In this document: positions 2,499 to 46,815 of the stretch, piece by piece | Position numbering within the stretch: position 1 is the stretch's first letter | How the letters are laid out: the number at the start of each line of letters is the position of its first letter | NCBI RefSeq assembly: GCF_019112545.1 | Contig: NW_025064904.1 | Location: 372,001 to 436,000, forward strand | Length of the DNA stretch: 64,000 bases | Direction: 5' to 3' | DNA from: Guyanagaster necrorhizus | Taxonomy: Eukaryota; Basidiomycota; Agaricomycetes; Agaricales; Physalacriaceae | Position numbers and translations under genes: made by a program | The notes under the pieces: generated by a model | The model's database searches: none | What the model was told of the DNA's origin: nothing | Seen by the model: the letters and a program-made list of their open reading frames with translations, nothing else

Positions 2499-2983
2499 TG
2501 TTAGGAATGTGCTAATTGAGTGGACTTGAGTGCATGTGCAGAGTCTGGCAGAGTGTGTGGGCATTGATGAAGCTATTGGCAATGTTATCCTTGAGTCAGA
2601 GCCCAAGGATCTGGATGGACCGAATAGAGTTCTGTTAGAGAAGCAAACCAGAATGTCCTTCAGAGCAGAATCTGATGGATGAGGTAAGGAGGAGTTGAAG
2701 TGGGTGCAAAGTGTAGCTGGCTTATCCAAGTTGATATTCAAACTGAGTAGTTATAATGATGTACATGGCTTTATATACTAATGGTAGCTAATTCTGAGTC
2801 AGATTCTATTGGGTTCTGGTGTCAGTATTCACTACTAAGTTTGGTGTCTAGATATTACAATGTGAAATGATAATAGTGAAATGAAATTAGTAAGTCATAG
2901 GAAGCAGCCAGAGTCCAGTGGGTAGCATGATTGAATTTATGATTGGTTGAGGTGATATGGAGGCCAGCAGCATGTGCATAACA
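2499..2983 (-). repeat. Element B: 3' LTR
   Basis: This LTR of 485 bases runs on the minus strand from TGTTATGCACATGC (2983 downward) to CCTAACA (2499). Its partner is 20157-20654. It is flanked on the left by TSD TCTTC. Confidence 0.93.
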
Positions 2984-3106
2984 GTATCCCCTCCTTAGTG
3001 TTCTTGTCCTCAAGAGTGTAGATTCTGATGGCCAGTGGGGCCATATAGAAGATTGTTGGTAGCCATAGAAGTTTTGCAGCTTAATCTGAAACCACTATCT
3101 TTGCTT

Positions 3107-4394
3107 ATGTCATTGCTCACCACATATCATTGCTTATGCACTCCTGAGCCTTTGGTGAGGGGATCCACTCCCAATAGCCCTGAAGAGGCCAAGAAATTGT
3201 TTCATCTAAAATGGTGAACCATAGAGGAAGAATATGCAGAGGCTGTGGAGAGCCATTTGAAATAGCAAGGGGAGCAGGAGCAGGAGGAAAGGGCCTGGGT
3301 AGACTGTGTGGCTCAGGAGTCATGAAAAAAGGAGCAGAGAGAGGAATTGGAGAGAAAGAGGGAGGAGGTTTGGCAGGCCACAGAGAGGCAGGCAAAGGAG
3401 GCAGAGGAGGCATTGAGAGAGGTGGCTTGGAGGGAGGCTGAGGAGAGGGAGGCTGCAGAGGCAGTGGTGAGGGTTGAAGCTGAGGAGGTAGAGCTGGAGG
3501 AGATGGTTATGGAGGATGGGTTGCAAATGATCTCTATGGAGGCCATTGATTTCTGACTGTGTCAAGTGTTAGCAGAATGGTTTGGTCCTGGCTCCAGTCT
3601 TTGCTTCAAGAAGATGACTCATCATGCACCTCTAGGATCCAATGATGAGCAGGACAAGAGAACTGAGGGGACTTTGGAGAGGAGGAAGAGGATGTGGGAG
3701 GAGAAGAGAAGGGCAGTGAGTTCAGCAGAAAAGGGCTATAAATGCAAGTTCAGATCAAGGAGCATAGTGGATAGCAGTGAGACAGAGGTGGTTGTTAGCC
3801 CTAAAAAGCAGGTGAAGTTGGAAGTGGCAGGACTGGCAGAGGGTGAAGAATTGTTGGATAGTGAAAGTAAGTGTCTTGGTTTTCTTTTATGGCTTAACTT
3901 AGCTTTTGTTTTCAGGGAGTTGTGTGCATTGTCATCAAGATAGCACATGGTGTTATGCATGACTGGTAACTGAAGATGCTGGTTGAGGGTGGACTTGCTC
4001 TCACTGCAAGATCAAGAAAACCACCTGTTCATTCAACAAGAGCATCACCATAAGTGAGGTGATCAGCAGTGTGGAGGTCTCTGCTGATCTCCACCAACTT
4101 TCAAAATTGATATGCAAGTTGATGTATCACATGGATGAGTTGGCAGATGAGGTGGTAGATGTTTGCAGTACTGTGGCAGGTCTTCAAGATGACTATAGTT
4201 CCGATGATATGTTATCTCCTTCAGAGCTGTTTTCGGAGTCCAAGGTGGAGGCCTGGAAGAAGGCCTGACTGATTTTCAAGGATGAGAGAGATCAGGAGGT
4301 AGAGGATCTTCAAGAGGTGATATTGAAGGGGCTGGATGAGGATATAGAGGAGTTGAAGGAGCAGAGGGAGAGTTTGGGTTCTGCTTCTTTGTAA
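3107..4394 (+). pseudogene. Element B: antisense intron-containing gene with Zn(II)2Cys6-like cluster
   Basis: The gene lies between pol and the 3' LTR of B on the strand opposite to pol. Exon 1 is 3107-3866, a 49-base GT-AG intron is 3867-3915 and exon 2 is 3916-4394. Joining the exons keeps one frame of 412 codons. Order: N-terminal EEAKKLF segment; charged coiled coil (about residues 71-144, Glu/Arg/Ala-rich); basic patch; CX2CX6C-X14-CX2CX6C at residues 256-291 (3921-4028); acidic C-terminal helices. The spacing matches a fungal binuclear zinc cluster except for a slightly long linker, so a DNA- or chromatin-binding role is an inference. Seven premature stops (TGA at 3215, 3323, 3554, 3960, 3984, 4266; TAG at 3263) make this copy dead. 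The start was chosen because element F has its ATG at the same place. Confidence 0.75.
3867..3915 (+). other. Intron of the antisense gene in element B
   Basis: The 49-base intron has a 5' site GTAAGTG, a branch-like CTTAAC and a 3' site TTTTCAG. Only its removal joins exon 1 (ending GATAGTGAAA) to the frame that carries the cysteine cluster. Element F has an intron of the same length at the same codon (45850-45898). Confidence 0.75.
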
Positions 4395-4572
4395 AATATT
4401 TTGTACAAAATATATATAGAAAAGAGTATCAGATGTTGGTAGTAGAGAAAAAAAATGTAAATACAAGATTCTGATTTTGAAAGTGTAAAAGAGGTGATTG
4501 AAATAGTAGTAATTAGTGATTAGAATTGAAATGGTAAGGTGGGGTGCTGGTGGTGTCCAGAGTAGCATTGTA

Positions 4573-6805
4573 TTAGGAATAGGATGTTTGAATGACTTTG
4601 GACAAGGATTCTGGTTTGTCTGGGTATCAGTGGTGGAATTCTTCAATGAATTCATTGGCAGAGAACTTAAAGGCAAGTAACTAAGCAAATTCTTCATTGG
4701 TATCTTCATATCCTAGCTATTGGATTTTGTACAACAGTGGGCAGTGGAACCAGTGGTCCAGTTTAGAGTTGAGAATTTGGGCTATTTTAAAATATTCTTC
4801 TCTGTCGACTTCAACTAGAGGCAGTGGTGGTTAGATTCAGTTAGAAATGGTGTTTTCTTCTATGGGTTCCAATTATGATATATGAAAGATGGGATGAATA
4901 GACCAGAGATCTGGCAGAAGCCTCAGAGTAAAGAAGTGGATCCCAGGTTGGGCTATAATTTTGAAAGGACCAAGGTATTTTTTCGAAAATTTTCTGGTCA
5001 GGTGGGTGGTTTTGATATGTTTGGAGCTGAGGTAGGCCTTGTCCCCCACTGTGAACAGAGGTGCCAGAATCTGATGCTTGTCTGCTTGGATCTTGTAGTA
5101 AGACTGAGCTTTGGAAATTTTATCCTTCAGTAATTGATGAAGTTTGTTAAGATTGACTGTAAAATCTCAGGCCTGGGTGAAGACAATGTCTCTTTCAGGG
5201 TGAATGGTGATGTTAGGGTGATAACCCTTGTTAGCAAAAAATAGAGAAATTCTGGTGGATGCATTAGGGGCATTATTGTAGGCAAATTCAGCAATGGGTA
5301 AGAGGGTGTCTCAGTTGTCCTGCTGATAGAAGCAGTAGATATGGATGTATTGTTCCAGAGTTTGGTTTGCTCATTCTGTTTGTCCATCAGCCTCCAGATG
5401 ATAACCAGAGGTAAAGTGGAGTTCTATATCAAGGGCCACAGCTAAGGCATGAGTAAATTAGAAGACAAATTTGGAGCTATAGTCAGATGTGATGTGACTG
5501 GGTACCCCATGTTTGGAGAATACATGGATAAGAAAAAGTTGGGTGAGCTCTATGGAGTTAATAGTGTCATGAGTGGGAATGAAGATGGCTTGCTTGCTAG
5601 CTCAGTCTATGACTACTAAGATGGTGATAAATCCATTGGAGTCCAGTAGTTGTTCAATGAAGTCCATGGAAATAAAATCCCATGGCCATTCAGAAACTGG
5701 CAGAGGTTTGAGTAACCCATAGGGGCAGTGTGTAGATGCCTTATTGCACCCACAAACTGTGCAGGACTTAACATAGTGTTAGATGTATTTATGCATCTTT
5801 GGCCAGGTATAGTTCTGCTGGACTAGTTCCAATGTCCAGTTTTGACCAAAGTGGCCTGCTAAGATGTGGTCATGATTGTTCTGTAGTATACAGAGACAGA
5901 GATCTTCAGACTCCAGGACATAGATGTGGCCTTCAAAGTGGAGAATGTCTGATTCATCAATGGACCACTGAGAGGAGGAGGATTCCAAAGTGGTCTTAGC
6001 CTGATGAAGGCTGTCAGAGGACATAGAGTCAAAAGATTGTGCTTGTTTGATATTGATGTGGAGCTTGTCAATATCCATGATGGTGCTGGCTCAAAGGATA
6101 GGGCCTTCAAGATAGGTTGCACAGAGTGACATGGAAAGTTGTTCTTAGGTGAATACAGGTTGGAAATTGTGGGGATTGACTTGGGCATATTGGCTATTCT
6201 CCTCTTTAAGGTAGATACCCCATCATCTAGTGAGTGCATCTGGTTTTCCACTAAGTTTTCCAGGGTGGAAATGAATTACTAGGTTAAACTAGAATAGGTA
6301 TTCAGACTAGCAGACTTATCAGCAGGTTAGAATCTTAGTGGTGGCAAAGTATTCAAGATTCTTGTGGTTTGTTATGACATCAATAGAGTCTGCAGAGCCT
6401 TCAAGGTAGTGCTGCCAATGTTTAAAAGCTTCAAAAATAGCCAGGAGCTCCTTGTCATGGGTGTCATAGTTGAGTTCAGCATTGTGGAGGCTCCAGAAGC
6501 AGAATGCAATTGGGTGAATTTTGCCATCTTCAAGATAGATAGAGAGAATAGCTGCAATGGTATAATTGGAGGCATTGGTTTTCACTACTATCTTTGGATC
6601 AGGAACCCAGTGAGTAAGGATGAGAGCATATGTAAAGGCCTGTTTCAATTCATTAAAGACAGCCAAGCAATTGTTGTCAAATTTCCATGGAGTTTCCTTG
6701 CAGAGGAGTCATGTAAGAGGAATGACAATGTCGCTATATCCATGTATGAAGTGACAGTAGAGGTTGGTAAAGCCAAGAAAGGATTGGATGTCCTTGACTT
6801 TTCAC
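4573..6805 (-). pseudogene. pol: Element B: pol, RNase H, integrase and chromodomain
   Basis: Read downward from 6805: end of RT and RNase H (6805-6319, with VVKTNASNY, where the catalytic Asp is Asn, and the motif ELNYDTHDKELLAI), integrase zinc-binding region (about 5870-5740, H...H...CTVCGC), DDE core (about 5700-5380, including SKHGVPSH), C-terminal integrase domain, and a chromodomain-like segment ending in FIEEFHH. The terminal TAA at 4575-4573 is at the same place in F. Several TGA and TAG codons interrupt it. Pol and the antisense gene converge, with 178 bases between their stops. Confidence 0.85.
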
Positions 6806-8628
6806 GGTGACATGCCCTCTTTATGTTCAGGCATGTAAAATTGTGAAAATTGCGAATACATGGACTGCATTCCAGTCCAGTAAGTATGTAACAGAAAATA
6901 GGACTAGAGCACACAGAAACCTAGCTATTATAATGATAAACTGAAGTAACAATAAGCAGAGTGCATGGCCTAGTAACAGACTAATACCAGAGGGGTTAGG
7001 CTGCATGTGAGATCCCAGCACTTGGCCCTAAATGCACCAATACTATTACAAGAGGACATGCTAAAAATAAAAAGATTATGATCAAAATATAATCGGCAAG
7101 TCTGATTACATTGATCAAAGATGCACAGCCATTGATGCCCTGATGGAATATACCTTAGAACAGAGAACTGAGACCCAAAGAAAGGTATCTGAGTAATGGG
7201 TATTGAATAGAGGAATAGACTGATGACAACAAGCTAACAAGTAGAGGAATATTACTCCAGGAATGAATAGTGCAGATACCACTCTGAGCCTTATGTGCAT
7301 ACATATAGTGGCTTAGCATGCATAACACAGTGAGGGACTCTGCATCATACTGAGAAATGGCATCTTTGGTGAGTCAGATAGAATGACTGATTAGACACAG
7401 AGAAGCAGAACATAGCCATTGTGGCTGGCTTCTAGTATGAGAAATAACTCCAGGGGTCTGAAACAGTTTACCACTGTCAGAGATATCACTGGGGGAATAA
7501 GAAAGCGAGCAGACCTGGAAAGGCCAGCTAGCTGATGTCAGCTAGTGAAGGAACAGCAGGCATAGTCATTGCCCAGAAGAGAATAAGTGCAGTAACTGTG
7601 ATATGCATGTGAATAATATCTGCAGGATCTGGCATGGAGTCCCATACTTTGAAGATACTATAGTAGGATTGTATTAGTAAGTACCATAGTAGAGTATTTA
7701 AATATGATATTATATGACTGGAGAGGGAGTTTTTCCAACCCTCCACAGTTGTGATGTATTGGGCACAGAAAGCCTTGCACTCTAGCTTTGGGTTTGTGTT
7801 AATAACTCTGGGCAAGAGAATAAACTTATTATTGAATATCATTGAGAGAGCTATGAGAACTAAATGAGACATCAAAGCTCATGAAGGACTTAGGTCCAGT
7901 TTGATAAGAGGTTTTAGATTGCGCTATAATCTGAGAATAAGAGAGCAGTGTCTGAAGAGTGTCATCTTGAGTTTTTGAGGTATTTGTGATGCACAGCACT
8001 ATAGGTGGCAGAGGTTCAAACTCTTTGGCTTGATTAGTGTGCACTTTTGTGCATTTCCACAGATTGGCAGAGGTTCAAATCCTTTGATCTGTCAGACGGG
8101 GTTTCATTGTGTTTATATTTCTAGATCACATAGGTTTGAATCCTGTGGGTTTATGATCAGTTTGGAAACTTGTGAACAGAGATCTGTGCTCTTTGGCACT
8201 TGTGGACATGTTTGTGATTGGTTTCTGCTTAGAGCATGAAGCTTTGAGTTGTGTATTGTGTGTGTTAGAGATTTGAGTTGATCTGAGCTGTGCTTAGGAC
8301 TATTTGAGAGTTTTGAAGGAGTGTTTTGATGCATTGTATTGAACTGCAGTACCCTTTACCTTGAGGTCTGGCAACACCAGTTGCCACCTCTTGTTTTGAT
8401 AAAACGAAAAGCTTTGAGGCTTAGAAAGGCCTTGGACTGTTGTAAATATGCTATTACTGTTCACATGCTGTGATCTCATTGAAGAAGACAATTATATTTG
8501 TTGATTGCTACTTTTATCACATTATAATCCCTCCATGAACTAAGAGTTTTATGTGTATGTGAGTGTGATCAGTGGATAACACTCTGCTGTATCTGTTTTC
8601 ATCTTACATATGCTCAGATCCTCTTCAG
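6806..8628. mobile_element. Element M: unclassified 1.8-kb insertion in B's pol
   Basis: The pol reading of B is broken between 8629 and 6805, whereas F is continuous there. The inserted DNA has no retroelement motif and no credible ORF. TTCAC (6801-6805) and TTCAG (8624-8628) may be a decayed 5-base TSD. A 7-bp inverted repeat ACATGCC/GGCATGT lies at the left end (6810-6836). The ends share only weak inverted similarity (GCATGTAAAAT versus GCATATGTAAGAT), so the class is open. It contains three T-arm-like repeats at 8013-8143. Confidence 0.6.
8013..8143 (+). repeat. Three spaced tRNA T-arm/B-box-like motifs in element M
   Basis: GGTTCAAACTC (8013-8023), GGTTCAAATCC (8072-8082) and GGTTTGAATCC (8133-8143) occur 59 and 61 bases apart. 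Restoring a decayed CG makes the last two GGTTCGAATCC, the consensus Pol III B box and tRNA T-loop. The middle copy can fold a five-pair T stem (AGAGG/CCTTT). No anticodon arm or clear A box was found, so these are not tRNA genes. A tRNA-derived tandem repeat or SINE relic is possible. Confidence 0.45.
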
Positions 8629-9557
8629 CAGCACTGGCCAGTCAACAATGGCCTTGACTTTTTCTTCAGACATGCAAAGTCCTTCAGGTGATAGGATATA
8701 GTCTAGATACTCCATGGAGTCCTAGTTGAATTTGCATTTGGAACCCTTGCAGTAGAGTCCATTAGCTCTAAGCCTGCATAGGACCTCTCAAACATGCTTC
8801 TGGTGATCTTCTGGGTTGTTGGAATATATGAGAATGTTGTTGAAGTAAACTACTACTGATATATCAAGCATGTTAGAGAATATATCATTCATAAATCATT
8901 GGAATACCGCTGGAGCATTTGTGAGGCTAAAAGGCATGATGTGCCATTTGAAAGAACCATAATGGGTCTGGAAGGCTGTTTTCCATTCATTCCCCTTAGC
9001 TATGTGAATGAGATGGTAGGCATATCTAAGGTCGAGCTTGGTATAGATACACATAGAGCAGATGGAGTCAAGAAGATCAGAAATGAGAGAGAGAGGGTAG
9101 CGATCTTTTTTAGAGATTTTGTTTAAGCCATAGTAGTTGATGCAAAGTCAGAGTTCACTGGTCTTTTTCTTGACAAATAGAACTGGAGCTCCATGTGAAG
9201 AGTGAGATAGAGTAATAAACCTATTGCACAGATTATCATCAATAAACTCTCATAGGGCCTTGAGTTCAGATTCTAAGAGAGAATAAATGGGGCCAAGCAG
9301 TGAAGATGTTCCTTTCTCAAGGTTGATTTTGAGGTCATATGGCCTGTGTTCAGGTAGCTTTTTGGAGAGGGTATTACTGAAGACATCTGCAAAATTGTAG
9401 TACTCTACTAGCACTGATGAAAGATCTGCTGGTTCTATGGATGCAGCTTTAGCTCTAATATTAGGCAAGGAAGGCTGCAGTGTGAACTTCTGAGTGTCTT
9501 CTTTTGCACTGGCTTAGACAAATGTGGCAGTGGATATGATGGAGATCTTTGGATATG
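8629..9557 (-). pseudogene. pol: Element B: pol, reverse transcriptase
   Basis: Read downward from 9557: linker after protease, then RT fingers and palm starting at the DLKINLEKGTS region (about 9380-9290). The catalytic box is at 8847-8836 and reads YFNN where YLDD or YFDD is expected, so both metal-binding aspartates have been lost (GAC to AAC). Its 5' side is separated from the protease by element A, and its 3' side from RNase H by M. Confidence 0.85.
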
Positions 9558-9562
9558 CTTTC

Positions 9563-10081
9563 TGTTATGATTTTTCTTATTTTTCCTATTTTCTTTCTCT
9601 TAATTCATCTGAGATTGACCCCTATTTCCGCTTAGTCAGGGCATTTAGACCAGTGCTTAGGACCATGAGAAGGCTTAGCTCAGCAACCCAGTCAGTCATT
9701 GTCTTAGCATGCTGCTGTGTGCTGTGAAGGGAAAGACAATACTCCTTTTGTTAAGCAACAGCAGTGCAGCAGTAACAGCACAACAGCCTTTATGGAAAAT
9801 CTAGCAACAGCAGGAGTAACAGCTTCATGACAGACAATATCTTTTGTGAACATCTATTAATAGTCAGATAATGAAACAGTATTTAAGTAGCCTAGCTCTT
9901 GCTATAATACCTCAGCTTCAAGCTAAAGTTTATTCTTTATCATCTACTCTTGAGCAACTTGCAACCACCTTGACTACACATTTCTATTAACACATCAGTG
10001 AACTCAGTCAGTCTAACCTGAAGTGCAAGGTTCTGAACTGTTTATCATGTGTTGATAGTCATGTGGAATTTGAGCTTAACA
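9563..10081 (+). repeat. Element A: 5' LTR
   Basis: 519 bases, from TGTTATGATT to GCTTAACA. It contains the TATA-like box TATTTAAG (9880-9887) and the self-priming segment (9914-9926). Most visible differences from the 3' LTR are C/T or G/A. Confidence 0.95.
9880..9926 (+). promoter_or_regulatory. Element A: predicted promoter and 5' end of retroelement RNA
   Basis: TATTTAAG (9880-9887) lies 34 bases upstream of AGCTTCAAGCTAA (9914-9926). By analogy with Tf1, the RNA would start at this segment, whose first 13 bases exactly complement the primer-binding site at 10083-10095. Confidence 0.55.
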
Positions 10082-10082
10082 A

Positions 10083-10095
10083 TTAGCTTGAAGCT
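10083..10095 (+). promoter_or_regulatory. Element A: self-complementary primer-binding site
   Basis: TTAGCTTGAAGCT starts two bases after the 5' LTR. It is the exact reverse complement of 9914-9926 in the LTR. This replaces the usual tRNA-complementary site. Confidence 0.65.
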
Positions 10096-10137
10096 TCTAG
10101 CTTCCCTTTCTCAAGCCTAATTGTGCTGAGAAACTGA

Positions 10138-13100
10138 ATGCCTCCTGCACTTAACCTATCTGACCTGAACTTTATCCATAAGTTCTTTGAGCTCTTGGCT
10201 TCTATCATAGAAATCTTGATCAGTCTATTGGTGATCATACAGCTGTGCCATGGATGCCAATCGATTGTAGCTTGAACAATCAGGCACTATTATGAATTTC
10301 AACATATTCAAACCATCCTCTGCAATATCACACCAGATCTCTCCCTCCATAACATTCCTGCCTCTGCTCAACAGTCCTTTCAACTCACAGAAGGACCCAG
10401 CCCCAAAAACATCCCTAGGAGCTTGACTGAAGAACATTCTAGGGAAGAAGAGGAGCAGCATCAGCAGCACATATACTCCTCATGACCCCCAACAGCAGTT
10501 GTCAGAGACTCTGAAAACCCTTGGGCTACAGGGTTTTGATGATCCAGATCTGACATCCTCATCTCATCCCTCCAGCATAGCATCTCAGCAATAAGGATGA
10601 CAACCCTCATCTCTAGCACCAGCATTGGGCACCATGCTAGAGACTCTCTTGATGCCTCATGGATAGCTCAAGAGACCAGAAATCTCAGGGGCCATGAATC
10701 CTAATGAATCACATCAGTATAAAGTAGAAGCACTAACAACAGGGCAGGGGTCAATAATGACCTATACTGAAATAATGATGACAATGAGCACTACTGGTGG
10801 CAAGCCACTGCCATCAAGGCTGACTGGCTGGAGTGCTGCACAGCTAGCAGTAATTCTAGCTGAGCAGCAGGCATATGAATGGTTCTAATGAGAATACAGT
10901 CAACCAACCCTGCCACTCTGGTCCTCCCCAGAGAGGACCAAGTTCAACATACTCATAATCTTTCCGAGTACAGGCAGGAGCAGGCATATGTTAACAATAA
11001 AATCACAAGAGAGAACACCCTCTTCAGACACTACCTCCAGGCATGAGCAGCAGAGCACAGAAGGAATGAGAGAGGTAGTTGGACAAGTATGCTCATTGGA
11101 ACCACCACCTCCAACTCCTCATTTCAGGAACCTGCCACTCCCACCACTGAGCCCGACCCCTAGGCAGACCCCAACAAGAAGGATGCACCCCTTGACCTCA
11201 ATAACAATCACCCATTATCTTATGGGACTAATACTATTGCAGAAACAAATAACATTCCAGTCTGAGGAGATGAGATACCAGAGGACAGAGGCACCATCAG
11301 GAGAGATGATGAAAGTATTGACCCTACCAGAGATCTCAAGAAGTTCCTCAACAGAAACTTTGCAGCTCTATTCCTCAACTCAAAGTTTTACAGAAACTTC
11401 CACTGGTATTGCAGAGCAATGGTGCCAGTAGCAATGAGCATCAAGGAACTATCAGGACAGCCTGAGTGACAGCCTACTCCTGGACCCAGATCTAATGACA
11501 CTGGACCCAGCACACAGCCCCAGCATGGCCATCTCAGAGGTCTATGACCTGCATGACAGTTCTCTCCTCGAGAGGGATGCAGACAATGAGGAGGAGAAGG
11601 AGAATCATGATGAGGAAGTTGGGGGTCCTTCTACTGACTGGGTCAGCTCATGGAATATACAAACACATGAAGAGAAGCAGAAGGAGTTGGCATGAGAGGT
11701 GCACCAGAAGGACTTTATGGAGTTGTACTGGGAGAGTACAACTACATTATGGATGGACAACATCTGGTTAGTGTCACCTATGAGACAAAGATATACTGCT
11801 ACTGATTATATTGAGCACATGGAAATTTTGCAGTATACGGCCACTGAACAGGCTATTTTTATTTATAATAAAAGATATTTAAGATACCAAATGCAAGTGT
11901 TACTGCTGTACAGGTCTAAGTATGGCACAATGCCACAACCCTGGACACTGAATATTATGTCAAGCAAACCAGCCAATATAGCACCATCAATCTGAATGAT
12001 GTCATTTAGATATTTGTTCACCATCTTGGCTGTCCAAAGCACAGCATCTCAGCTCACTAAGAGCCAACCTCAACTGAGCAGCCACTACTCAAACCCATAG
12101 TGGATGCCAATTCAGAAACCATTTGCCAGGCAGCCACCACTAGATGAAGCCAAAGGCAGTAGCAGAAATGCATCTGAGGAACTCCTTCTCATAGAGGATG
12201 ATCCTGTGGCACTTGCCCAAGGCTGGACTGTCAAGAATGGTCAAATTGTACAGAAAACAGTTTCCCACCAGAGAGTCCTGTCACCGATGATGGCTCCCTT
12301 CATTCTTTTCCAGAACCTCCAAGCAGATAGTTGGGATTGCCTGCCAGAGAGTGGCCAAACTCAATGTCCACCCTCAATGCAGGAGCCCAAATTCTTAATA
12401 TCAAATCAGTTCTTGTGTCTGAATCCTGACTCTTTTAGGAAGCCTCTGATGATATTGATTGATTCCTGGTTGATTGTGACTAATACTTCCAAGTATTTGC
12501 CCCATACTTTCTTGCCAATATGTACAAGGTGACATTCACAGCAACCCACATGGCCAATAAAGCCAAAACCTGGTGGATCCTGATCTCCCTGACATTCTGG
12601 TCCACTATAAGGACCCATCACCAATATCCCTTGTGGCCAGTCTTCAAACAAATGATTGTCAACAAGTTCATAGATCCAGCTGTCCAGGAAGTCCATAAAC
12701 AAAAGATGAAGGACTTCAAAATGGCTGGCAAACCAGCTGCTGACTACTTTGATAAATTAGAACAACTCAGCAAACTTGCCAGAGTCCAGGATAATGTCAC
12801 TGATTCTGGGCAAATGGTCGAGTATATGAAAATAGGAGTACCAGCCTCCTATCTTATTATTATATCTGACATTGGACAAGGGATTCTCATTGGATATGAA
12901 GAGTGGAAGGCCCAAATTATCACCATGTATAAGGAATGACAGTGACAGAAGGTGGAATCAGCAACCTTATCATAGGAGGCACATAGGAATCAGAGACAAG
13001 GCTCAAAGCCTTCTGTTCCTATTACAACTATATCCACCAAGCCTAAAGGCTCGGCTTCAACTTCTTTCAGTAAGAAGTGAACCAGTATGGGCATGACATT

Positions 13101-13320
13101 TACCAGAATGGGTCAGCCAATGGATGTGGATCATCTCAAGAAAAGGAGAAAATGTTTCAATTGTGGCTAGAAAGGCCACATGATATGTAACTGTCCCCAG
13201 AAGAAGAACAAATGCATCAGGGAAGACATCAGAGTGCAGATTGCTGAATTGATAAAGGAGAAAAAAGACCTCGGCCAAGAAGAAAAGGCCAAGAAGGTAA
13301 AAGATGAGGCTGAGCAGTGA
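10138..13320 (+). pseudogene. gag: Element A: gag
   Basis: The ATG at 10138 opens with MPPALNLSDLN and a hydrophobic segment (about residues 16-36). Middle parts appear in different frames (10694-10888, 10988-11431, 11495-11695, 12104-12532), so indels or an unrecognised discontinuity exist. The capsid-like region is 12520-12939 (KTWWILIS, then AVQEVHKQKM, then DYFDKLEQL), typical of Ty3/gypsy gag. A CCHC knuckle at 13153-13194 reads CFNCG*KGHMICNC. The region is about 3.2 kb to its TGA at 13318, much longer than usual for gypsy gag. That TGA overlaps the GTG that opens the pol frame. Confidence 0.8.
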
Positions 13321-16300
13321 GTGATTTCACTGACTCAGCCAAGAACATGAGTAACAGGTCACAGACTGCTAGACAGACTGACAATTTCTCCCTTATAGTA
13401 CCTCCTATATCTAAATTATGCATGCATTTGAATATACTTGACTCTATCACTCATGGATACAAATCACCTAAGGAACCAGTTTCAACAACTCAAGCACCAA
13501 TGAAGGGCTGAAGAGAGGCAGAGAGTCCCATTGGTTGGCTAAAACTATTTGATACCAAATAGACTTGGTGAGCCATCAAGAATGCAAAAGATGAAGCAGC
13601 AGCAAAGGCTATACTCAGAAACTGGGTATATAAGACTCAGACTGAAGAGGTAATTGATGATATGATCAATGGAATGAAAGTGGCAGAATGAAATTGAGTC
13701 TTGGAATAGTTTGATGAACTCCATGGACCATGAAAATTTATTTGATGATCTAAGATTAAAGGACAGGACTTAATAACCAAAGTCCAGATCGAGACACTAA
13801 CATCTCAATCCACCCATACAGTCACTACCTTGATTGACAGTAGCTGTACAGAGAGTTCAATCAATCATGCTTTTGTCATCAAGCACAACCTCCCAACTAA
13901 GGCAATGGCAGCCTCAATTCTGATCTATAATGCAGATGGAACAAAGAACCAAGCCAGATTGATCACTGAATACATTGAGCTGAGGCTCACTATCAGTGAT
14001 CATTCAGAATAAATCAATTTGGCAGTAACTGATTTAGGAACCAAGGAAATATTCCTTGGATATAATTGGCTGATCCAACATAATCCGCTCATCAATTAGA
14101 AGACTGGCTACATTATCTTCACTCGATGCTGATGCTGGAAAATCCCATTTGAACTATCAGATAAGGATCCCAAGGACCAGTGGGATGAAGAAATGGAAGA
14201 TGGAGAAACAATTCTTGCCATCCACATACAAAGAGCCATTTGCATTCAAGCTATTCACTATACAAATGACCTAGCAGCAAAAGCCAACACTACCAAGAAG
14301 AAAAGGATATTCAAAGAAATGGTACCTGAATAGGCATAGGACTATCGAGACTTATTTGAAAAAGAAAGTTTTGATGAATTACCTGAATCAAAACTCTGGA
14401 ACCATGCTATTAAATTGATTTCAAATGTGAATGCCAACTTGGACTGCAAATGCTATCCACTTGGCAACAAGAAACAATAAAAATTAGACAAATTTCTTGA
14501 TGAGAATTTGTCCAGTGGAAGGATCTAATCATCAAAGTCACCAATGGCTTCTCCCTTCTTCTTTGTCAAGAAGAAGGATGGGAAACTCCAACTGGTACAG
14601 GATTACCAAAAACTTAACAAAATGATGATCAAAAATTGCTATTCACTTTCTTTAATTTCAGAACTGATGGATAAACTCTGAGGTGCTAGGTACTACACCA
14701 AACTGGATGTCCAGTGAGAGTACAACAATATGCACATCAAAGAAGGTGATGAATGGAAAGCTGTCTTTCAAACTAATCATAGGTTGTTCGAACTGATGGT
14801 AATGTTCTTTGGACTCACCAATTTGCTGGCAACTTTCCAGTGGATGATAAACAACATCTTCAAAAATCTCATTGCCACTGAAAAGATCACAATTTACCTG
14901 GACGATATCCTTATTATATCCAAAATCAAAGAGGAACATTGATGGCTGGTATGCCAAGTACTAGCCCTAATAAGGAAGCATTGACTCTTTCTCAAGGCTG
15001 AAAAATGTGAATTCGAGGTACTTGAGACTGAATACCTCAGAGTCATTATCAATGAGAGAAGCATCAGAATGGATTCTGTCAAAGTGACAGGAGTGACTGA
15101 TTGGCCAGAACCAACAAAGAAGAAGGAACTGCAATCATTCCTTAGATTCACCAACTTCTATCAATGGTTCATCCGAGACTACAGCAAAATAGTCTGACCC
15201 ATAATGCAATTGACTGGAAATGCCTCATAGACCTGAGGAATTTCACAACAAGCAGCATTTGATGACCTCAAATGCTGATTGGCTGAAGATGTCATTCTGG
15301 CTATACCCAGTCAGGATGAAAAATTCAGAGTTGAAGCAGACTCCAGTGAGGGCACTATTAGAGCCATACTTTCACAGAAATAAGATGGCAAATAGCAACC
15401 CATCGCCTTTATGTCAAAAGCACTCATCATCACTAAGCACAACTATGAAATCTATGACAAAGAACTCTTTGTCATAATGCTCACTCTTGCTGAGTGGTGG
15501 CATTATCTCATTAGAGCAGTCCAAATCTTCAAGATCTGGATGGATCACTAGAACCTACAATACTTTCAACACCCACAAAAGCTTAATCACCAACAAGCCT
15601 GGTGGGTCACAGAATTATTACAATACAAATACACACTATACTATAAAGCTGGTGCAGCAAACAAGAAGGCTGATTTCCTCAGCTGCAGAGCAGACCATGA
15701 CCAGAGAGGAAATGATAACAAGGAGATCATAGTCCTACAACTGGAACACTTTCATGCTATGATCATACTCATGGAAGAGGAAGTACATGAGCATATCAAG
15801 AGCACTACCCAAGATCTGCACAAGTGAGATCAAAGGATTGCCTCATAACTCAATCATGAGTGAGAGCTAAAGAAAGAAGGGGGGATGATCTGCTATGATG
15901 GATGGATCTACATCCCAAGAGATCAAGGACTTCATAGTGATATTATTGCCACGTGCCATGATCACACAACAGCTAGTCATTCAGGAATTGCCAAAATGAA
16001 GGAGCTGATACTATAGGAGTATTGGTGGCCCAAAATAGACTATGATATCACCTGATATGTCAAAGCTTGTGAGGTTTGCTAATGAGATAAGGCCTCAATC
16101 CAACCACAAGCAGCACTATTACACCCAAATGAGGTTCCTTCATCACTATGGACCCACATTTTGGTGGATATAATCATGGGACTTTCTGAGAGTGATAGAT
16201 ATAATGCAATCATTGTTATAGTTGATTGCTTCTCAAAGGCTATCATACCAATCACCTGTTTGATGGAATTAACATCAGAAGAATGAGCCAAAATTCTATA

Positions 16301-17474
16301 GGATGAGGTTTATGCAAAATATAGCATGCCTCAGATAGTGATTTCGGACAGAGAATCACAATTCATCTCCAAATTCCTAGATGACTTGTATTGACTCCTC
16401 AATATCAAGAGGAATGCCTTGATGGCATATCACTCTCAAACAGATGGACAGACAGAACAAGTCAATCAAGAAATTGAAAAGTACCTCTGACTTTTTATCA
16501 ACCATCGCTAAGATGATTAGACAGAATGGCTTTCACTAGCTGCTTTTCAACACAATAATAGGATTCACTTGGCCACTGGGAAGACACTCTTCTTTGCCAA
16601 CTATAGACAAAACCCACCAGTTATGCAATAGGAATGGGCATGAATGACAACTCCAGCATCCATGGACTTTGCCAAAACCATGGCAAAAATCCACAAAGAA
16701 ATGAAAGCAGCACTGGAAAAGGCTGCCTTAACTATGAAGAAACAGTATAACAAATATCACAGACCAGCCCATGAATATTCAGTCAATGACAAGGTTTGGC
16801 TGGACACAACAAACCTACATCTCCCTTGCCTAAAACAGAAACTCATAGACAAACAAATAGGACCATTTAAAATTGTCGCCAAGATTAGCAACTCTGCATA
16901 TAAGCTACAACTACCAGCTACTTGGAAGGTTCATAATGTTTTCAATGAAACATTATTAATATCATACATTGCACCAGCATTTCTAAATCAAGAACGACCA
17001 CCCTCACTACCACCAGAGCTAATCAATGATGAAGAACATTATGAAATCAATAAAGTGCTAAACCATAAAATATGAAAGGTCAAAGCACAAGGCAGAGACA
17101 TGGAAACAACTATTGACTACTTAGTCAGCTGGAAGGAGTATGGCCCAGAATCAAACCAATGAGTCAACAGGAAATACATGAATGCAGAGGAAGCAACTCA
17201 CAACTATGAACAATGGATCAACAAGGTGGATACAGAGAGAGTCATATTCAATATTAACCCTGAACAAATACATTCACCTGCAGTCAATATCTTTATGAAC
17301 CTGAGGCCAAGAATATCAGGCACAGAGGATGGAGATACTGATACTGTGACAGACAAGCCAGAAATAGTGTAGAGATCACACAGGAGACATATAGTGAAGA
17401 GCAATGTCTACAACATGACAGATCCAGCAGATCAGCCATCTGCGAGTAGCTGGAAGGACTTACCTCTAAATTAA
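13317..17474 (+). pseudogene. pol: Element A: pol (PR-RT-RH-IN-chromodomain)
   Basis: The frame opens at GTG 13317, one base before the gag stop, with a pol-frame stop (TGA 13311) immediately upstream. Protease: LIDSSC at about 13830, where the catalytic DSG is [16 protein letters not shown] at about 14560 and an intact YLDD box at 14895-14906. RNase H: about 15325-15720 (VEADSSEGTI; NYEIYDKELF). Integrase: HHCC at about 15955-16085, then VDIIMGL, SDRE and VNQEIEKY as D-D-E landmarks. Chromodomain: about 17029-17215 (DYLVSWKEYGPESNQ). A tail of about 80 residues before the TAA is absent from K, H and I. Many TGA and TAG stops, mostly former Arg or Trp codons. Confidence 0.9.
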
Positions 17475-17506
17475 CCATCAGAACAATGGTCTTAAGAAGG
17501 GGATAA
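17475..17506 (+). promoter_or_regulatory. Element A: conserved 3' box and polypurine tract
   Basis: ATCAGAACAATGGTCTTAAG is followed by AAGGGGATAA against the 3' LTR. The block aligns with those of K, C, E, G, H and I. Confidence 0.65.
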
Positions 17507-18025
17507 TGTTATGATTTTTCCTATTTTTCCTATGTTCTTTCTCTTGATTCATCTGGGGTTGACCTCTATTTCCACTTAGTCAGAGCATTTAGACCAGCAC
17601 TTAGGACTGTGGGAAGGCTTAGCTCAACAACCCAGTTGGTTATTGTCTTAGCACACTGCTGTGTGCTGTGAAGAGAGAGATAATACTCCTTTTGTTAAGC
17701 AACAGTGGTGCAGTAGTAACAGCACAACAGCCTTTGTGGAAAACCTAGCAACAGCAGGAGTAACAGCTTCATGACAGACAATATCTTTTGTGAACATCTA
17801 TTAATAGTCAGATAACGAAACAGTATTTAAGTAGCCTAGCTCTTGCTATAATACTCTAGCTTCAAGCTAAAGTTTATTCTTTACCATCTACTCTTAAGCA
17901 ACTTGCAACCACCTTGACTACACATCTCTATTAACACATCAGTGAACTCAGTCAGTCTAACCTGAAGTGTGAGGTTCTGAACTGTTTATCACATGTTGAT
18001 AGTCATGTGGAATTTAGACTTAACA
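17507..18025 (+). repeat. Element A: 3' LTR
   Basis: 519 bases, TGTTATGATT to CTTAACA, the same length as the 5' LTR. It is followed by TSD CTTTC (18026-18030). Confidence 0.95.
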
Positions 18026-18030
18026 CTTTC

Positions 18031-20117
18031 ATAGTAAAAGATTCTGAGAGAGGATAGGAGTAGATAGATTCATATGAAAATGGAGTCTGCTGATTACCTG
18101 GAGTCGATTTGGAATGGGGTGAAGCCCTAAGAGTTGGACTGATGGAGTCTGGTGAGCATGGAAGTCCCTGGGATACAGTGAAGGCCATAGAATTGGTTGG
18201 AGTGAGGTCTTGGTAGCTTGAGTGGAAAATGATACTGTTCTCAGCCCAGTCAATCAGTGGATTATAGCAGGAGAGCCAGTTGTATCCTAGGACAAGATTG
18301 CAAGATGAATTCAGAGAAGTGACATAGAAGTTGATGGAGAAGGTGTCTCCAGATGAGAAACAGATGGGAATAGTTGCAATTTGAGATATATGGCTCCTGA
18401 TGGAGCTATCAAACAATTGAAGTTGCATATTAGGGATGGTTTTAATAGAAATTTCATTGGCAGTTACATACTTAGTGTCAATAAAGCAGTGGCTAGAGCC
18501 AGAATCAATAAGGGCAAGAAAACACAGAATGATACAAGTTGAGGAACCATCAGGTTCCATGGTAGTCAGTAATTCTGCTGAGAGGGGAATGTGGAAGAAG
18601 TGATTGGAAAGGGATGTTGCATTGAGAGTGATAACCTGATGTGCGAATAGAGTCAATGCAACCCTGAACTCGCATGGAGGGAACAGAGTTGCTTCCTAGT
18701 TTTTTGACTCTATCAGGGCTGGTTCTATGGGAGCAGTGTCAACTTCTGCTGCATGACCCTTGGCAGAGGCTGCTGCCTTCTGCTTGTTGCAGTCCTTGGT
18801 CTTGTGTTTGGCTTCACAGAACATGCAAAGATTGTTCTGGTGCCAGTGGTCTTTTTCTTTCTAAGTAAGATAGCCATCTTTGCCTAGCTTATCAGCATAG
18901 GGCTTAGGGGTGATAGATTTTGGTGTGAAGCTGGAGTCCAAGGAAGATATATTAGACTCCTTGGATTTGAGGTTGAGGAATTTATTGTCTCAGATTTCAT
19001 AGGCAATTTTGGTCTTCTGGGTTCAGTAGCAAGCATCAAGTTCTTGGGCAAGGAAGCATATATTACAAAGGTTGTTTGGCTTCTCATAGTGTGCCATGTC
19101 ATCCTTGATATGGGTGCAGAGGCCACAGTAAAAGGCATGGTGGAGAGAGTTATCTCTATATCCAATTTGTGAAGCATACTGGTTGAATTAGACTATATAC
19201 TTCATGGTCTAATCTCCATCATACATCTGAAGGTGTTCTAATGCATCTTCAGCATCTTCAATAGCATCAAAGAGGCCAAAGTTGCTATGAAGCTCATCTA
19301 AAAAAGCTGCATAGGAGAATTGTCAGGCTGGTGGATTCCACAGATTGGGGTTAAGAATGTCTGGTTTGAACCAGTTAAGCATGGTGCTGGCCAGGAATAA
19401 AATGGCATAGTTAACCTTGTTAGCATCTGTTGCAAATGTGGTAGGTCTGTCATTGAAGTTCAACTGAAGGGAGATGATGAAAGCCTTCAGTTTGTGAGGG
19501 TCAGAGTCATCAAATAGTTCCAGTTCCTTGATCTTGGTATAGATAGTGGCTGGTTTAGAGTTGTTGAGAGAAGCAAAGACTCCTCATAACAGGTTCATGA
19601 ATTCTAGGAACATGTCCTGCTGGTTTGGATTGTTACTTCCTGTGGGACCATCAGAGCTGCCTGGGTCATTGGGACCACCTGGACCATCTGGAAAAGGGTT
19701 TGGTGGATTACCACCTGGTTCCTGTCAGATAGGAGTATGAGTAGAGGTGTCTTTATCTCTGCTCTCTGAGTTTAGGCTGTCTGGATTCCCATGCATGTTG
19801 CCCAGGGATAAAAGGTCTATTGAGAGATCGGTTCAGACACCATACATCAGGCTGGCCTGTCAGGCTCTGTTGGTTGGGATGCTGGTGGCATCAAAAGAGT
19901 TAGGGGAATTGTCATAATTAGATTGGTGGGCAGTGAAGCTAGAGTGATTGTAGGTTTCCCTATAGAAAGGTTGTCCTCCACTGGAGACTGATCCAAAAAG
20001 GCCTGGTTGTTCCTTTGAGGCAGAGGCTGGAATGTCTTCCATAGAAAACATGTTTGGATAGATGGACTGAGTTTATTTGAGATCAGTTTCTGTGGGTTTA
20101 GTAAATGTGATGGACAT
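18031..20117 (-). pseudogene. gag-pol: Element B: gag and protease
   Basis: The ATG at 20117-20115 begins MSITFTKPTETDL, close to the starts in F and L. Order downward: Ser/Pro-rich N-terminus, Gly/Pro stretch (PDGPGGPNDPG), capsid-like region (about 19560-19100; LQLNFNDRPTTFATDANK, LNWF), and a knuckle CMFCEAKHKTKDC at about 18827-18790 with CX2CX3HX4C spacing, one residue shorter than the retroviral form. An in-frame TAG at 18698-18696 then separates gag from the protease (ORF 18656-18003, LIDSGSSHCFID, intact DSG). Element A cuts the gene at 18026. Confidence 0.88.
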
Positions 20118-20143
20118 GATAAAATTTTCAACTCAAGAGTTTG

Positions 20144-20154
20144 AGTTCAAATAT
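20144..20154 (-). promoter_or_regulatory. Element B: self-complementary primer-binding site
   Basis: On the minus strand this reads ATATTTGAACT, two bases after the 5' LTR. It pairs with AGTTTGAATAT in the LTR (20402-20392), with two G-U pairs replacing what was probably one CG on each side. Confidence 0.6.
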
Positions 20155-20156
20155 AC

Positions 20157-20654
20157 TGTTAGGAATGTGCCAATCAAGTGAGCTTGAGTGTATGTGCAGA
20201 GTCTGGTAGAGTGCATAGGTGTCGACAAAGCTATTAGCAACATCACCCTTAAGTTAGAGCCTAAGGATCTGAATGGACCAAATAGAGTTCTATTAGAGAA
20301 GCAAACTGGAATGTTCTTCAGAGCAGAATCCAATGGATGAGGTAAGGAGGAGTTGAAGTAGGTGCAAAGTGTAGCTGGCTTATCTAAGTTGATATTCAAA
20401 CTGAGTAGTTATGATGATGTACATGGCTTTATATACTAATGGTAGCTAATTCTGAGTCAGATTCTATTGGGTTCTGATGTCAGTATTCACTACCAAGTTT
20501 GGGGTTTAGATATTACAATATGAAATACAGATGTGAAATGATAATGGTGAAATAAAATTAGTAGGTAATGGGAAGCAGCCAGAGTTCAGTGGGTAGCATG
20601 ATTGGATTCATAGTTGGTTGAGGTGACATGGAGGCCAGCGGCATGTGCATAACA
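20157..20654 (-). repeat. Element B: 5' LTR
   Basis: 498 bases. On the minus strand it starts TGTTATGCACATGC and ends CCTAACA. The flanking TSD TCTTC at 20655-20659 matches 2494-2498. Confidence 0.94.
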
Positions 20655-21053
20655 TCTTCTTACTGCTTCTGGATAATGCTATCTTTACTCAATACTCCAC
20701 AACTGGCTATGGTATTATACTCCTAGCTGTTTTAGAATATGCTTGTCTTAGTAGCATGTAGAATTGGCTCCATTTGAGATACCATTTCTAAGTCCAACTT
20801 GGACTTAGTATTTTCCAAGGTGTAGTGCAGAACTTTTCTAAGTTCAAACCTGACTTAGGATTTTTATCCTTAGGCTATGTTATTTTTACAAAGTCCAATT
20901 TGGACTTAGTATTAGTGACTAGCATGACTATCAGCTCAGAGCCTCAGTCATAGTCCTCTACTAGCTAATGACCCTCAGTTACTAGCATATTCTAGTGTGT
21001 TATGCAGAATTTGCAAATTATAGGGCTGAACATGTAGCCTGCACATCACTGTC
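20655..21053. mobile_element. Element D, right part
   Basis: The continuation of D after B. It carries two near-palindromic 21-base boxes (20788-20808 and 20889-20909) around AAGTCCAA.TTGGACTT and more scattered GACTTAG copies. Its right end GCACATCACTG mirrors the left end. There is no coding potential. Gag of C resumes at 21054. Confidence 0.5.
20788..20909. repeat. Paired near-palindromes in element D
   Basis: AAGTCCAACTTGGACTT (within 20788-20808) and AAGTCCAATTTGGACTT (within 20889-20909) are near-perfect palindromes about 100 bases apart near D's right end. Half-sites (GACTTAG) recur in both parts of D. Subterminal repeats of this kind often bind transposases; that role here is inference. 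Confidence 0.6.
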
Positions 21054-26500: not shown

Positions 26501-27419
26501 CCTCCTTAACATCAAGTGGAACATGTCAACCATGTATCATCCTCAAACTGATGGGCAAACAGAATGAGTAAACCAAGAGGTGGAAAAATACCTTTGCCTC
26601 TTCATCAACTACAGACAGGATGACTGGGTGGAATAGTTGGCACTTGCTGCCTTCCAATACAATAATAGGATCTATTCAGCCACTGGAAAGACTCTGTTCT
26701 TTGTCAATTTTAGGCAACATCCATATGTCACTTGAACCAAATCACATTACACTATGACACCTGCATCCACAGACTTTGCTACAACCATGGTGAAAATTCA
26801 TAATGAAACTAAAGCAGCCCTTGAAAAGGCTGCATCCATGATGAAGAAGCAGTATGACAAACATTGTCATGCAGCTCATGAATATTCAGTCAACAATAAA
26901 GTTTGGCTAGATATGACAAACTTTCACCTTCTATGACTGAAACAGAAGCTTGCTGACAAGCATACAGGACTCTTTTCTATTCTTGCAAAAGTCAGCAATT
27001 CTGCCTATAGATTATGCCTTCTAAACACTTGAAAGATACATGACATCTTTAACAAGATACTCCTATCTTTTTATATTGTGTCAGCATTTTCAAATCAAAA
27101 ACACCTACCTCCATCATCTTTGGACCTGGTCAATGATGAGGAACACTATGAAATAGACTAGATTCTCAACCATAAACTCTACAAAGTTAAAGCTTATAGT
27201 GGAGGAATGACAACTACAGTTGACTATCTAGTCAGCTAGAAGAGGTACAGTCCAGAGTCAAATTAATGGGTTAATGAAAAAAATATGAACACTGAGGATG
27301 CTATATACAACTATGAACAGGCATTGAACTGATATTTTATCAGTTAATGTCTTCATGAATCTTATGAGAAGAAGAGCAGGTTATCTGCTCTTGGATGTCA
27401 TAACTTATCCCTAAATTAG
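23499..27419 (+). pseudogene. pol: Element C: pol (PR-RT-RH-IN-chromodomain)
   Basis: Protease LIDSGCTGSSIN at about 24000 is intact at DSG. RT runs from about 24690 (FFFIKKKDGKL) to 25340, with intact YLDD at 25042-25053; a frame change relative to protease shows an indel. RNase H about 25470-25830 (NYEIYNKELLAIML). The integrase HHCC is at about 26100-26230. The DDE core begins at about 26300 (VDIIIRLL) but lacks some 100 bases around the second Asp, since ISDT at 26490 joins directly to the region before YHPQTDGQTE. The chromodomain is decayed (about 27140-27310). The gene ends at TAG 27417-27419 (TAA elsewhere). Confidence 0.85.
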
Positions 27420-28108: not shown

Positions 28109-30541
28109 TACAAAACTATCAGAGGCTTAACAAAATAATGATCAAAAATTATTACCCATTGCTGTTAATTTTGGATCTCATAGATAAGCTCCAAGGAGCC
28201 TGATATTACACCAAGTTAGATGTCTGCTGGAGCTATAACAATGTATGGATCAAGAAGGGCAACAAATGAAAAGCCACCTTCTGCACCAACCAGGAACTAT
28301 TTGAGCTGACAGTCATGTTCTTTGGCCTTACCAATTTGCTGGCAACCTTCTAATAGATGATGAACAACATATTCAAGGATCTCATTGCCACTGGCAAGGT
28401 CACCATCTGCTTGGACAACATTTTAATTATGTCCAAGACCTAGAAAGAACACTGATGAATAGTTTCACAGGTACTAGCTTTGATGAGGAAACACTATCTT
28501 TTCCTCAAAGCTGAGAAATGCAAGTTTGAGGTACTTGAGACTGAGTATCTCAGAGTTATCATCAGTGAAGGGAGTATTAGAATTGACCCCATCAAGATGG
28601 CAGGAGTAACAGAATAGCCAGAATCAACAAAGAAAAAGGAGTTGCAATCCTTTTTTGGATTTACCAACTTCTACTGCTGGTTCATTCATGACTATAGCAA
28701 AGTGGTCCAGCTGATGATGCAATTAACCAGCAATACCTCATGGACCTGGAGTCTCTCTCAGCAAACAGCATTTAACAATCTCAAAAGGTGACTAACAGAA
28801 GATGTCATTCTCATCATCCTGACTCAGAAGGGAAAGTTCTGAGTTGAGGCTGATTCCAGCAAAGGCACCATCAGCACCATCCTCTCTCAGGAACAAGGCA
28901 ACAAGTGGAGACTGGTTGCATTCCTATCAAAGGCCCTGACAATCACAGAATGCAATTATGAGATCTATGATAAGGAGCTGTTAGCTATAATGCTTGCTCT
29001 AGCTGAATGGTGATACTACCTGATCAGATCAGCTCAGGCTTTTGAAGTCTGGACCAATCACCAAAACCTCTGATACTTCCATTTGCCTCAAAAGCTGAAC
29101 TGATGACAAGCCTGATGGATCACAGAATTATCAGAATATGAATACATGCTATACTACAAGGCCAGCACAGCCAATAAAAAGGCAGACCTACTCAGCAGGT
29201 GGGCCAACCACAATCAGAGAGAAAGTGATAATGAGGGAGTGGTTTTCTTAAAGCTGGAGCACTTTTGAGCAATGATAATGCCCATCAAAGAAGAGATTCA
29301 TGAGTGCATCAAGAGCATGATATGGAACACTTACAAGTGGGATCAAAGAGTAGCACCCTCACTCAATCATGAGTGAGGAATGATGAAAGAGGCAGGAATG
29401 ATCTATTATGATAGTCAAATATACATTTCTAGGGATCAAGCCCTTTGTGGTGAAATCATTGCTATATGCCATAATCTTGCAATAGCTAGACACTCAGAAA
29501 TTGTAAAGACCAAGGAACTAGTACTATGTGAGTACTGGTAGCTAAAAATAGGCATTGACATTGAATAATATGTCAAAGCTTATGATATATATCAGTGAGG
29601 AAAATTCTTGACACAAGCATGCACTGCCTCTCTACACTCCAATGAAGTCTCAACTACTCTATGGACTCACATTTCAGTTGACATGATAACTAGACTATCA
29701 GAAAGTAATAGTTATAATACTATCCTCATCATTATTGATCACTTCTTGAAAGCAATCATTCTGGTCATATGTTTCACAGATTTAACATCTGAGAGATGGG
29801 CTAAAATCCTATGTGATGAAGTATATGCAAAGTACAGGATGCCTCAAGTGGTCATTTCAGATAGGGGTCTCCAATTTGTCTCCAAATTCCTCAACAATTT
29901 CTATCAACTCCTAAACATTAAACAAAATGTCTTAATGGCATACCATCCTCAAACAGATGGGCAAACTGAGAGGGTAAATCAAGAAGTTGAAAAATACTTA
30001 TGTTTTTTCATCAACCACAGACAAGATGATTGGATGGAATGGTTAGCCCTAGCTGCCTTCCAACACAACAATCATGTCCACTCAGCAACAGGCAACTCAC
30101 CATTCTTCATAAATTTTAAATGACACCCTAATGTTGCTCAAAACATCCATATGCATACCTTCACTCTAGCCTCATTAGACTTCACCACTACCATGGCAAA
30201 GATACATGAAGAGATGCAATGTGCTCTAGAGCATACAGTAGCTACTATGAAAAAGCAATATGACAAGCACCAATGCACTGCACATTCCTATTCTATCAAT
30301 GACAAGGTGTAGCTAGACACCATAAACCTTCATCTTCTCCAGCCAAAGCAGAAACTATCTGACAAATGCATAGGACCATTCTCAATAATCTCTAAAGTGG
30401 GAGCAGCCACTTATAAATTGCATCTTCCAGCACACTGAAAAATCCACAATATCTTTAACAAAACCCTTCTAACACCCTATGTGGCTCCAGCCTTTCCCAA
30501 CCAGCAGTGACCTCTGCCACCACTGCCAGATCTAATTAATG
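28109..30541 (+). pseudogene. pol: Element E: pol from RT to integrase C-terminal domain
   Basis: Begins abruptly inside RT (QNYQRLNKIMIKN). The RT box at about 28411 is CLDN instead of YLDD. RNase H is at about 28840-29210 (VEADSSKGTISTI; NYEIYDKELLAIML). The integrase core is open at 29608-30123 (171 codons), with ISVDMITRL, ISDRGLQFVSK and TERVNQEVEKY, so the D, D and E positions are all kept. F interrupts the gene at 30547, after LPDLINDE. Confidence 0.85.
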
Positions 30542-46800: not shown

Positions 46801-46815
46801 CTAATGGGGGGATAC
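46801..46815 (+). promoter_or_regulatory. Element F: polypurine tract
   Basis: A G-rich run (TGGGGGGATAC) abuts the 3' LTR, as expected for the plus-strand primer. In B the equivalent run, just above 2983 on the minus strand, reads AAGGAGGGGATAC. Confidence 0.6.

Follow-up and report, generated by a model that had tools for sequence, protein, structure and literature searches.

Plants and Boty provide known cases of antisense open reading frames (ORFs) located between pol and the 3' LTR, as described in the available parts of the literature (PMC7264820, PMC8365987, PMC11963269). They are termed aORF-3R, and the examples in the accessible sections of two of these articles are gene23 of maize Grande, rice RIRE2, the TRP28 ORF of Retand and brtn of Boty (PMC7264820, PMC11963269). 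The protein of the Grande antisense ORF is described there as nuclear (PMC7264820, PMC11963269), and the function of retrotransposon antisense accessory genes is given as unknown in the available part of the review (PMC7264820). A retroviral counterpart is found in HTLV, where, according to excerpts of PMC3185765, spliced antisense transcripts from the 3' LTR lead to nuclear proteins that repress LTR activation. One of them, HBZ of HTLV-1, is a bZIP protein (PMC3185765, same excerpts).

We analyzed a stretch of 64,000 nucleotides from Guyanagaster necrorhizus (the window; C25:372001-436000) and searched the genome it belongs to (53.3 Mb in 109 contigs). A Ty3/gypsy element, element B, occupies 2499-20654 on the minus strand from LTR to LTR, with other insertions nested within it. 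It is delimited by its LTR pair and by a target duplication (TCTTC at 2494-2498 and 20655-20659). The 5' LTR (20157-20654, minus strand) and the 3' LTR (2499-2983, minus strand, starting with TGTTATGCAC and ending with CCTAACA) are 87.3% identical, and a polypurine tract read from the sequence, CTAAGGAGGGGATAC, adjoins the 3' LTR at 2984-2998 on the minus strand. No primer-binding site was recognised directly after the 5' LTR (20120-20156, minus strand, GTATATTTGAACTCAAACTC). The pol region matched the Pfam families RVT_1 (5.1e-8), RT_RNaseH_2 (1e-25), Integrase_H2C2 (6.4e-11) and SH3_Tf2-1 (9.9e-16). Its C-terminal part (4630-5601, minus strand), recognised by Pfam and by 82% identity to the pol C-terminus of locus L060, comprises the integrase core, SH3 and a chromodomain-like region. 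Element B thus has all the features used to define Ty3/gypsy elements: reverse transcriptase, RNase H, integrase, LTRs, target duplication and polypurine tract. About 1.8 kb within its pol (6806-8628) is missing from a sister copy at 33189-34950 and is a nested insertion. A second Ty3/gypsy family is present in the window at 16233-17072, 26505-27179, 29749-30477, 35682-36446, 55716-56598 and 59501-60334, its pol being merely 27-34% identical to that of L060.

On the plus strand, between the 3' LTR and pol of element B, lies a gene that we call zc (3107-4394, with the ATG at 3107 and the stop at 4394; 123 bases separate the ATG from the 3' LTR). An earlier note on this DNA had put a spliced gene at this place, opposite to pol, and its observation is confirmed. 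The same note held that two frames join solely by removal of the 49 bases at 3867-3915, and that the product has a charged coiled coil and CX2CX6C-X14-CX2CX6C; both descriptions are accurate, the frames running from 3107 and from 3918 and the cysteines following a charged, coiled-coil-like stretch. Exon 1 (3107-3866) encodes an N-terminal motif, the charged coiled-coil-like region and a basic region. It is followed by the predicted spliceosomal intron of 49 nt (3867-3915, GTAAGT...CTTAAC...TTTTCAG) and by exon 2 (3916-4394), which encodes the zinc cluster (3921-4028), a second coiled-coil-like stretch and the stop. Within the first exon, the basic motif SPKKQVKLE (3797-3823), which we take to resemble a nuclear localisation signal, has its three lysines kept in 62, 63 and 62 of 63 genomic copies. 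Both exons are decayed in the window copy, which is a pseudogene with seven in-frame stops (four in exon 1, three in exon 2). A second copy (45353-46685, minus strand) has an intron of the form GTAAGT...CAG, is antisense to pol at 44147-45118 and stands beside an LTR at 46812-47313. All zc matches in the window are confined to these two copies of the first Ty3/gypsy family.

Searches of the genome with zc gave at least 40 DNA matches and at least 150 protein matches. From 78 loci, 20 duplicates were removed to give 58 distinct copies. These form three groups: A with 32 copies, the window copy among them, B with 23 and C with 3. Five further copies brought the set to 63, one joining group C (L083) and two each making up groups D (L080, L084) and E (L081, L082). 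The set favours well-preserved copies, as these were chosen by best hits and by long or stop-free frames. Among the 58, an LTR lies upstream of zc in 57, the exception (L020) having a truncated zc, and 55 have pol downstream, without exception on the opposite strand (55/55); the three loci without a downstream pol contain unreadable stretches. Viewed from pol, 99 of 123 scored copies have zc at 205-357 bp from the pol C-terminus (measured between matched stretches), in the opposite orientation in all 99. This constant place within the element led us to reject zc as a nested foreign insertion.

The 5' end of the intron reads GTAAGT in 63/63 copies and its 3' end YAG in 62/63 (exception L068), with a length of 49 nt in 33 copies, 51 in 16, 48 in four, 50, 52, 53 and 56 in two each, and 47 and 54 in one each. 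Intron indels among the 58 copies are of one to five bases, so intron length varies independently of the frame. In the exons of these copies, indels of 9 to 42 bases are all multiples of three except one of 13, and those of one, two or four bases, which are also present, look like decay. On the strand of the genomic RNA the intron reads CT..AC. Since it is legible solely on the zc strand, the genomic RNA would, by strand and splice-site rules, carry the intron through reverse transcription. The earlier note had suggested that the antisense orientation protects the intron in this way, and the 63 copies examined, none of which is intron-less, are consistent with it. RNA folding of the intron region and a comparison with Rfam found nothing.

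Divergence of the intron interior between group C and AB (groups A and B), D and E is 0.29-0.32, which equals or exceeds that of third codon positions (0.24-0.30). The interior varies less than the exons within A (0.036), within B (0.009) and between AB and D (0.074), which is not what a simple neutral intron predicts. Deamination left unmasked in the exons may account for their excess, and the intron is also short, with few sites. We rejected unspliced read-through as the source of the main product: copies with a 51-base intron stay open, but those with 49 bases shift frame. It is also disfavoured by the database relatives described below, of which 21 of the 57 listed read straight through the intron place without an insert (33 are not judgeable by pattern). 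The other three (P0002, P0012 and P0025) contain 16-18 additional residues directly before the first cysteine, which we interpret, on sequence grounds, as an intron left unspliced where zc has its own.

Variants common to four or more of the 58 copies comprise 441 transitions and 23 transversions, with TGA common among the stops, a picture that suggests CpG decay of this genome's repeats linked to methylation. When variants within the 58 copies were counted by codon position, little emerged and no clear pattern. As the transitions swamp such counts, we masked CpG columns and compared subfamilies, dropping every codon that touches a CpG column and using 11 well-preserved copies of the 55 in A and B. 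The median dN/dS of the spliced frame, from pairs that share ancestry and are hence not independent, is 0.26 between AB and E (22 pairs), 0.30 between AB and D (22 pairs) and 0.20 between AB and C (44 pairs). In all three comparisons this frame has the lowest value of the six, the other five ranging from 0.34 to 1.85. Values under 1 were also obtained for frames -1 and -2 (0.34-0.67), which an overlap between their degenerate sites and those of frame +1 may explain. For the C-terminal codons of pol, dN/dS is 0.18 (30 AB-C pairs; three of 13 rows are partial), so that the conservation of zc is close to that of pol (0.20 vs 0.18 between AB and C). Differences at first, second and third codon positions are 0.309, 0.290 and 0.438 for the divergent copy L086 (transversions, p = 0.009) and 0.227, 0.161 and 0.299 for the second copy in the window, the third position having the highest value in both cases.

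Purifying selection on zc is visible solely between subfamilies. A dN/dS comparison among copies had been proposed in the earlier note, and its outcome, with the spliced frame at 0.20-0.30 and lowest of the six, speaks for a gene. Two observations for which that note would have abandoned it, neutral cysteines and the lack of any intact copy, came out the other way, in favour of the gene: each of the six cysteines is kept in 60-63 of the 63 copies, and 12 of the 63 are free of stops when read in the reference-anchored spliced frame (indels ignored). As far as sequence can tell, zc is maintained as protein code, its splice sites and frame-specific selection exceeding chance.

Fungal Zn(II)2Cys6 clusters follow the pattern CX2CX6C-X5-12-CX2CX6-8C. 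The cluster of zc, called close to it in the earlier note, has two CX2CX6C halves; the X14 linker lies outside the pattern, and the gathering score of Pfam Zn_clus (PF00172) was not reached (5/25 members match, best E 1.3). Because of that score, we do not claim membership in Zn(II)2Cys6. A stricter residue pattern fits 0/57 listed relatives, and 24/57 when its first residue is left out. A match to LEU3 obtained with profile A2 (E 0.26) was not recovered with profile A3. We trusted none of the sequence matches in Pfam, NCBIfam and PDB (e.g., DUF2443, 0.0064; Cytochrome_C7, 0.0035), since those below E 0.01 are single, under the cut-offs where these are shown, or fit low-complexity sequence. 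TRP28 (PF04195) is not among the 25 families listed, of 29, for zc.

Some elements lack zc. Among the 123 scored pol copies, 24 have no zc among the best 150 zc matches, and more such elements may therefore exist than those we describe; of these 24, two were opened and have no zc, and a third is without it by its junction. The two opened loci, L087 (C69:42900-44116) and L088 (C4:1797164-1798300), have an LTR (81-82%) beside a pol of 90-91% identity. They have one common junction within TGTTGGTAG, a nine-base direct repeat that stands on either side of zc in the window (3054-3062 and 4434-4442, plus strand). A search with this junction gave 41 matches (best 40 of 384 candidates), of which two are full length, L087 and L088 themselves. 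The third element (C11:283301-283415) has a different junction, so that, on sequence evidence, at least two different deletions made the zc-less elements. We take the loss as derived because deeper lineages have zc. That L087 and L088 have this junction in common suggests that the zc-less form spread once zc was gone; less likely, the same deletion arose twice at the repeat. With at least two deletions, one of them found at two sites, zc seems not to be needed in cis, which argues that it is either trans-acting or dispensable.

We propose that zc is an antisense accessory gene under purifying selection between subfamilies, that its transcript would be spliced, and that it likely encodes a nuclear zinc-cluster coiled-coil protein regulating transcription from the element's own LTRs. 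We put the probability of this reading at about 0.55. The antisense transcript would start in or just inside the 3' LTR and would be spliced. The protein would be imported into the nucleus through its basic motifs (KRKFRS and SPKK-type), dimerise through the coiled coil and bind DNA through the cluster. It would then lower, or less likely activate, sense transcription from the LTRs, doing so in trans, in keeping with the zc-less copies. Each of these biochemical steps we infer. Anatomy and selection are what the comparison of sequences establishes, specifically the place and strand of zc, the conservation of its splice sites, the frame-specific selection, the cysteines, the Armillaria relatives and the absence from some elements.

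The main rival to LTR regulation, which we regard as unlikely though well within reach, is that zc is an integration or chromatin-targeting factor, its cluster and coiled coil tethering the pre-integration complex together with the chromodomain-like pol tail, with no control of transcription. The pol of element B does end in SH3_Tf2-1 (9.9e-16) and in a weak Chromo match (19.8 bits, E 7.5e-4; below the cut-off of 25.1), a chromodomain at this place being the mark of the chromovirus branch; zc and pol are conserved to a similar degree, and the nuclear-looking basic motifs would suit targeting equally well. However, antisense expression would separate zc from the Gag-Pol particle, and zc-less copies are present at distinct sites.

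The earlier note also regarded zc as a captured host-type gene, and its relatives bear on this point. A database search with the product of one uninterrupted zc copy gave one match, a protein of Armillaria solidipes (E 4.6e-9, 28% identity, 98% of the query), aligned from the first methionine of zc to residue 380 of its 555. Searching with that protein gave 25 proteins, and a five-row profile at least 57, of which 31 are named, all from Armillaria (solidipes, borealis, ostoyae and gallica), and 26 unnamed. The family is multi-copy, and several of its Armillaria members are named Zn(2)-C6 fungal-type. In an eight-row alignment, all six cysteines, a KK before the sixth and an FNK after it are invariant. 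The cluster linker is X8 in all 27 listed relatives with the full motif (30/57 are without it, many of them short entries), X11 in L086 and X14 in the window family, making X14, on these alignments, a peculiarity of the latter.

In this genome, 79 rows match the Armillaria protein (best 78 of 297 candidates), and 13 of them, all with stops, are outside the main zc list. Three of these divergent loci were opened, all decayed. At L086, an LTR (75%) and pol (81%) flank zc, with order and strands as in the main copies. L085 encodes the long C-terminus seen in Armillaria and runs antisense to the end of a pol (63%). At L079, zc runs directly into a homologous LTR (69%), the two being oriented to each other as elsewhere. 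Because all three lie beside an element LTR or pol, the short and the long forms of zc both go with the same element lineage. Traces of the intron at its usual place are incomplete: L085 keeps CTGAC and TTTTCAG and L086 TTTCCAG next to the first cysteine, with ambiguous 5' sites, and L079 has GTGAGT and no clean 3' site. A 450-residue open frame at 1465-2814 of L079, beside the zc remnant on C46, may encode a NACHT/STAND-like NTPase. A scan of viral contigs found no relatives of zc, and no host progenitor is present among the matches listed.

If zc were a transcription-factor gene captured from the host and carried along as a passenger, this would explain its host-like features, i.e., the zinc-cluster-like motif and the intron, and the Zn(2)-C6 names of several Armillaria relatives. 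However, the relatives found belong to multi-copy families, the three opened divergent copies sit by a homologous LTR or pol, and selection between subfamilies argues against a passenger. We therefore consider this origin improbable, more so than integration targeting, and the capture suggested earlier is not supported. A recent host capture is unsupported and an ancient one possible; as judged from sequence, the data point to zc as an old part of the retrotransposon lineage.

A function of the antisense RNA instead of a protein, through antisense or double-stranded RNA control of the sense RNA, was raised for such ORFs in the available part of a review (PMC7264820), and such a transcript would overlap its sense counterpart. 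This explanation is already disfavoured and has little chance of being right, as frame-specific purifying selection, the kept cysteines and amino-acid conservation with Armillaria point to a protein. That there is no gene, and the frame is open by chance opposite non-coding DNA, is a reading to which the seven stops of the window copy might seem to point. It is refuted by the splice sites, the dN/dS values, the cysteines and the Armillaria homologues, and its probability is close to nil.

Among known proteins, the Armillaria proteins named Zn(2)-C6 show homology along 98% of the length of zc, with six aligned cysteines; they differ in having a linker of 8 and a longer C-terminal region. Fungal Zn(II)2Cys6 factors (PF00172; LEU3, GAL4) likewise have two CX2CX6C halves and then a coiled-coil-like stretch. 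Unlike them, zc has a linker of 14, has its basic residues mainly in the second half, and is located on a retrotransposon. As a genetic arrangement, zc agrees with aORF-3R, as defined in the available parts of the sources, in residing on a Ty3/gypsy element, in its place between pol and the 3' LTR, in its antisense strand, in its presence in most copies and in protein conservation like that of pol. It differs from the aORF-3R described in those parts by its conserved predicted intron and six-cysteine cluster. The word "intron" is absent from the texts of PMC7264820 and PMC11963269 available to us, and the literature searched showed no antisense gene with an intron or a zinc cluster in LTR elements of fungi. 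Against that literature, the intron and zinc cluster look new, and the antisense accessory ORF is itself of a known kind.

As its arrangement of domains can be recognised, its copies are many, relatives exist in a second genus and some elements of the same genome have lost it by natural deletion, zc makes protein function, trans-action and strand-protected introns testable. HBZ of HTLV-1 and APH-2 of HTLV-2, as far as the available part of the source describes them, are also antisense genes near the 3' LTR, so the anatomy agrees; a spliced transcript and a nuclear regulatory protein, which they have, are predicted for zc by functional parallel. Tentatively, and with less confidence than LTR regulation as such, we suggest that a lineage of fungal retrotransposons codes for a spliced antisense zinc-cluster transcription factor of its own. 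It would be a self-regulator of the HBZ type that arose independently of retroviruses; its spliceosomal intron would have survived repeated reverse transcription because the gene runs opposite to the genomic RNA, and the zc-less elements would be cheaters on zc supplied in trans. Where HBZ has a bZIP domain, zc has a zinc-cluster-like motif, and we draw the parallel in function, claiming no sequence relation. If zc regulates LTRs, it would be a non-retroviral case of the HBZ strategy.
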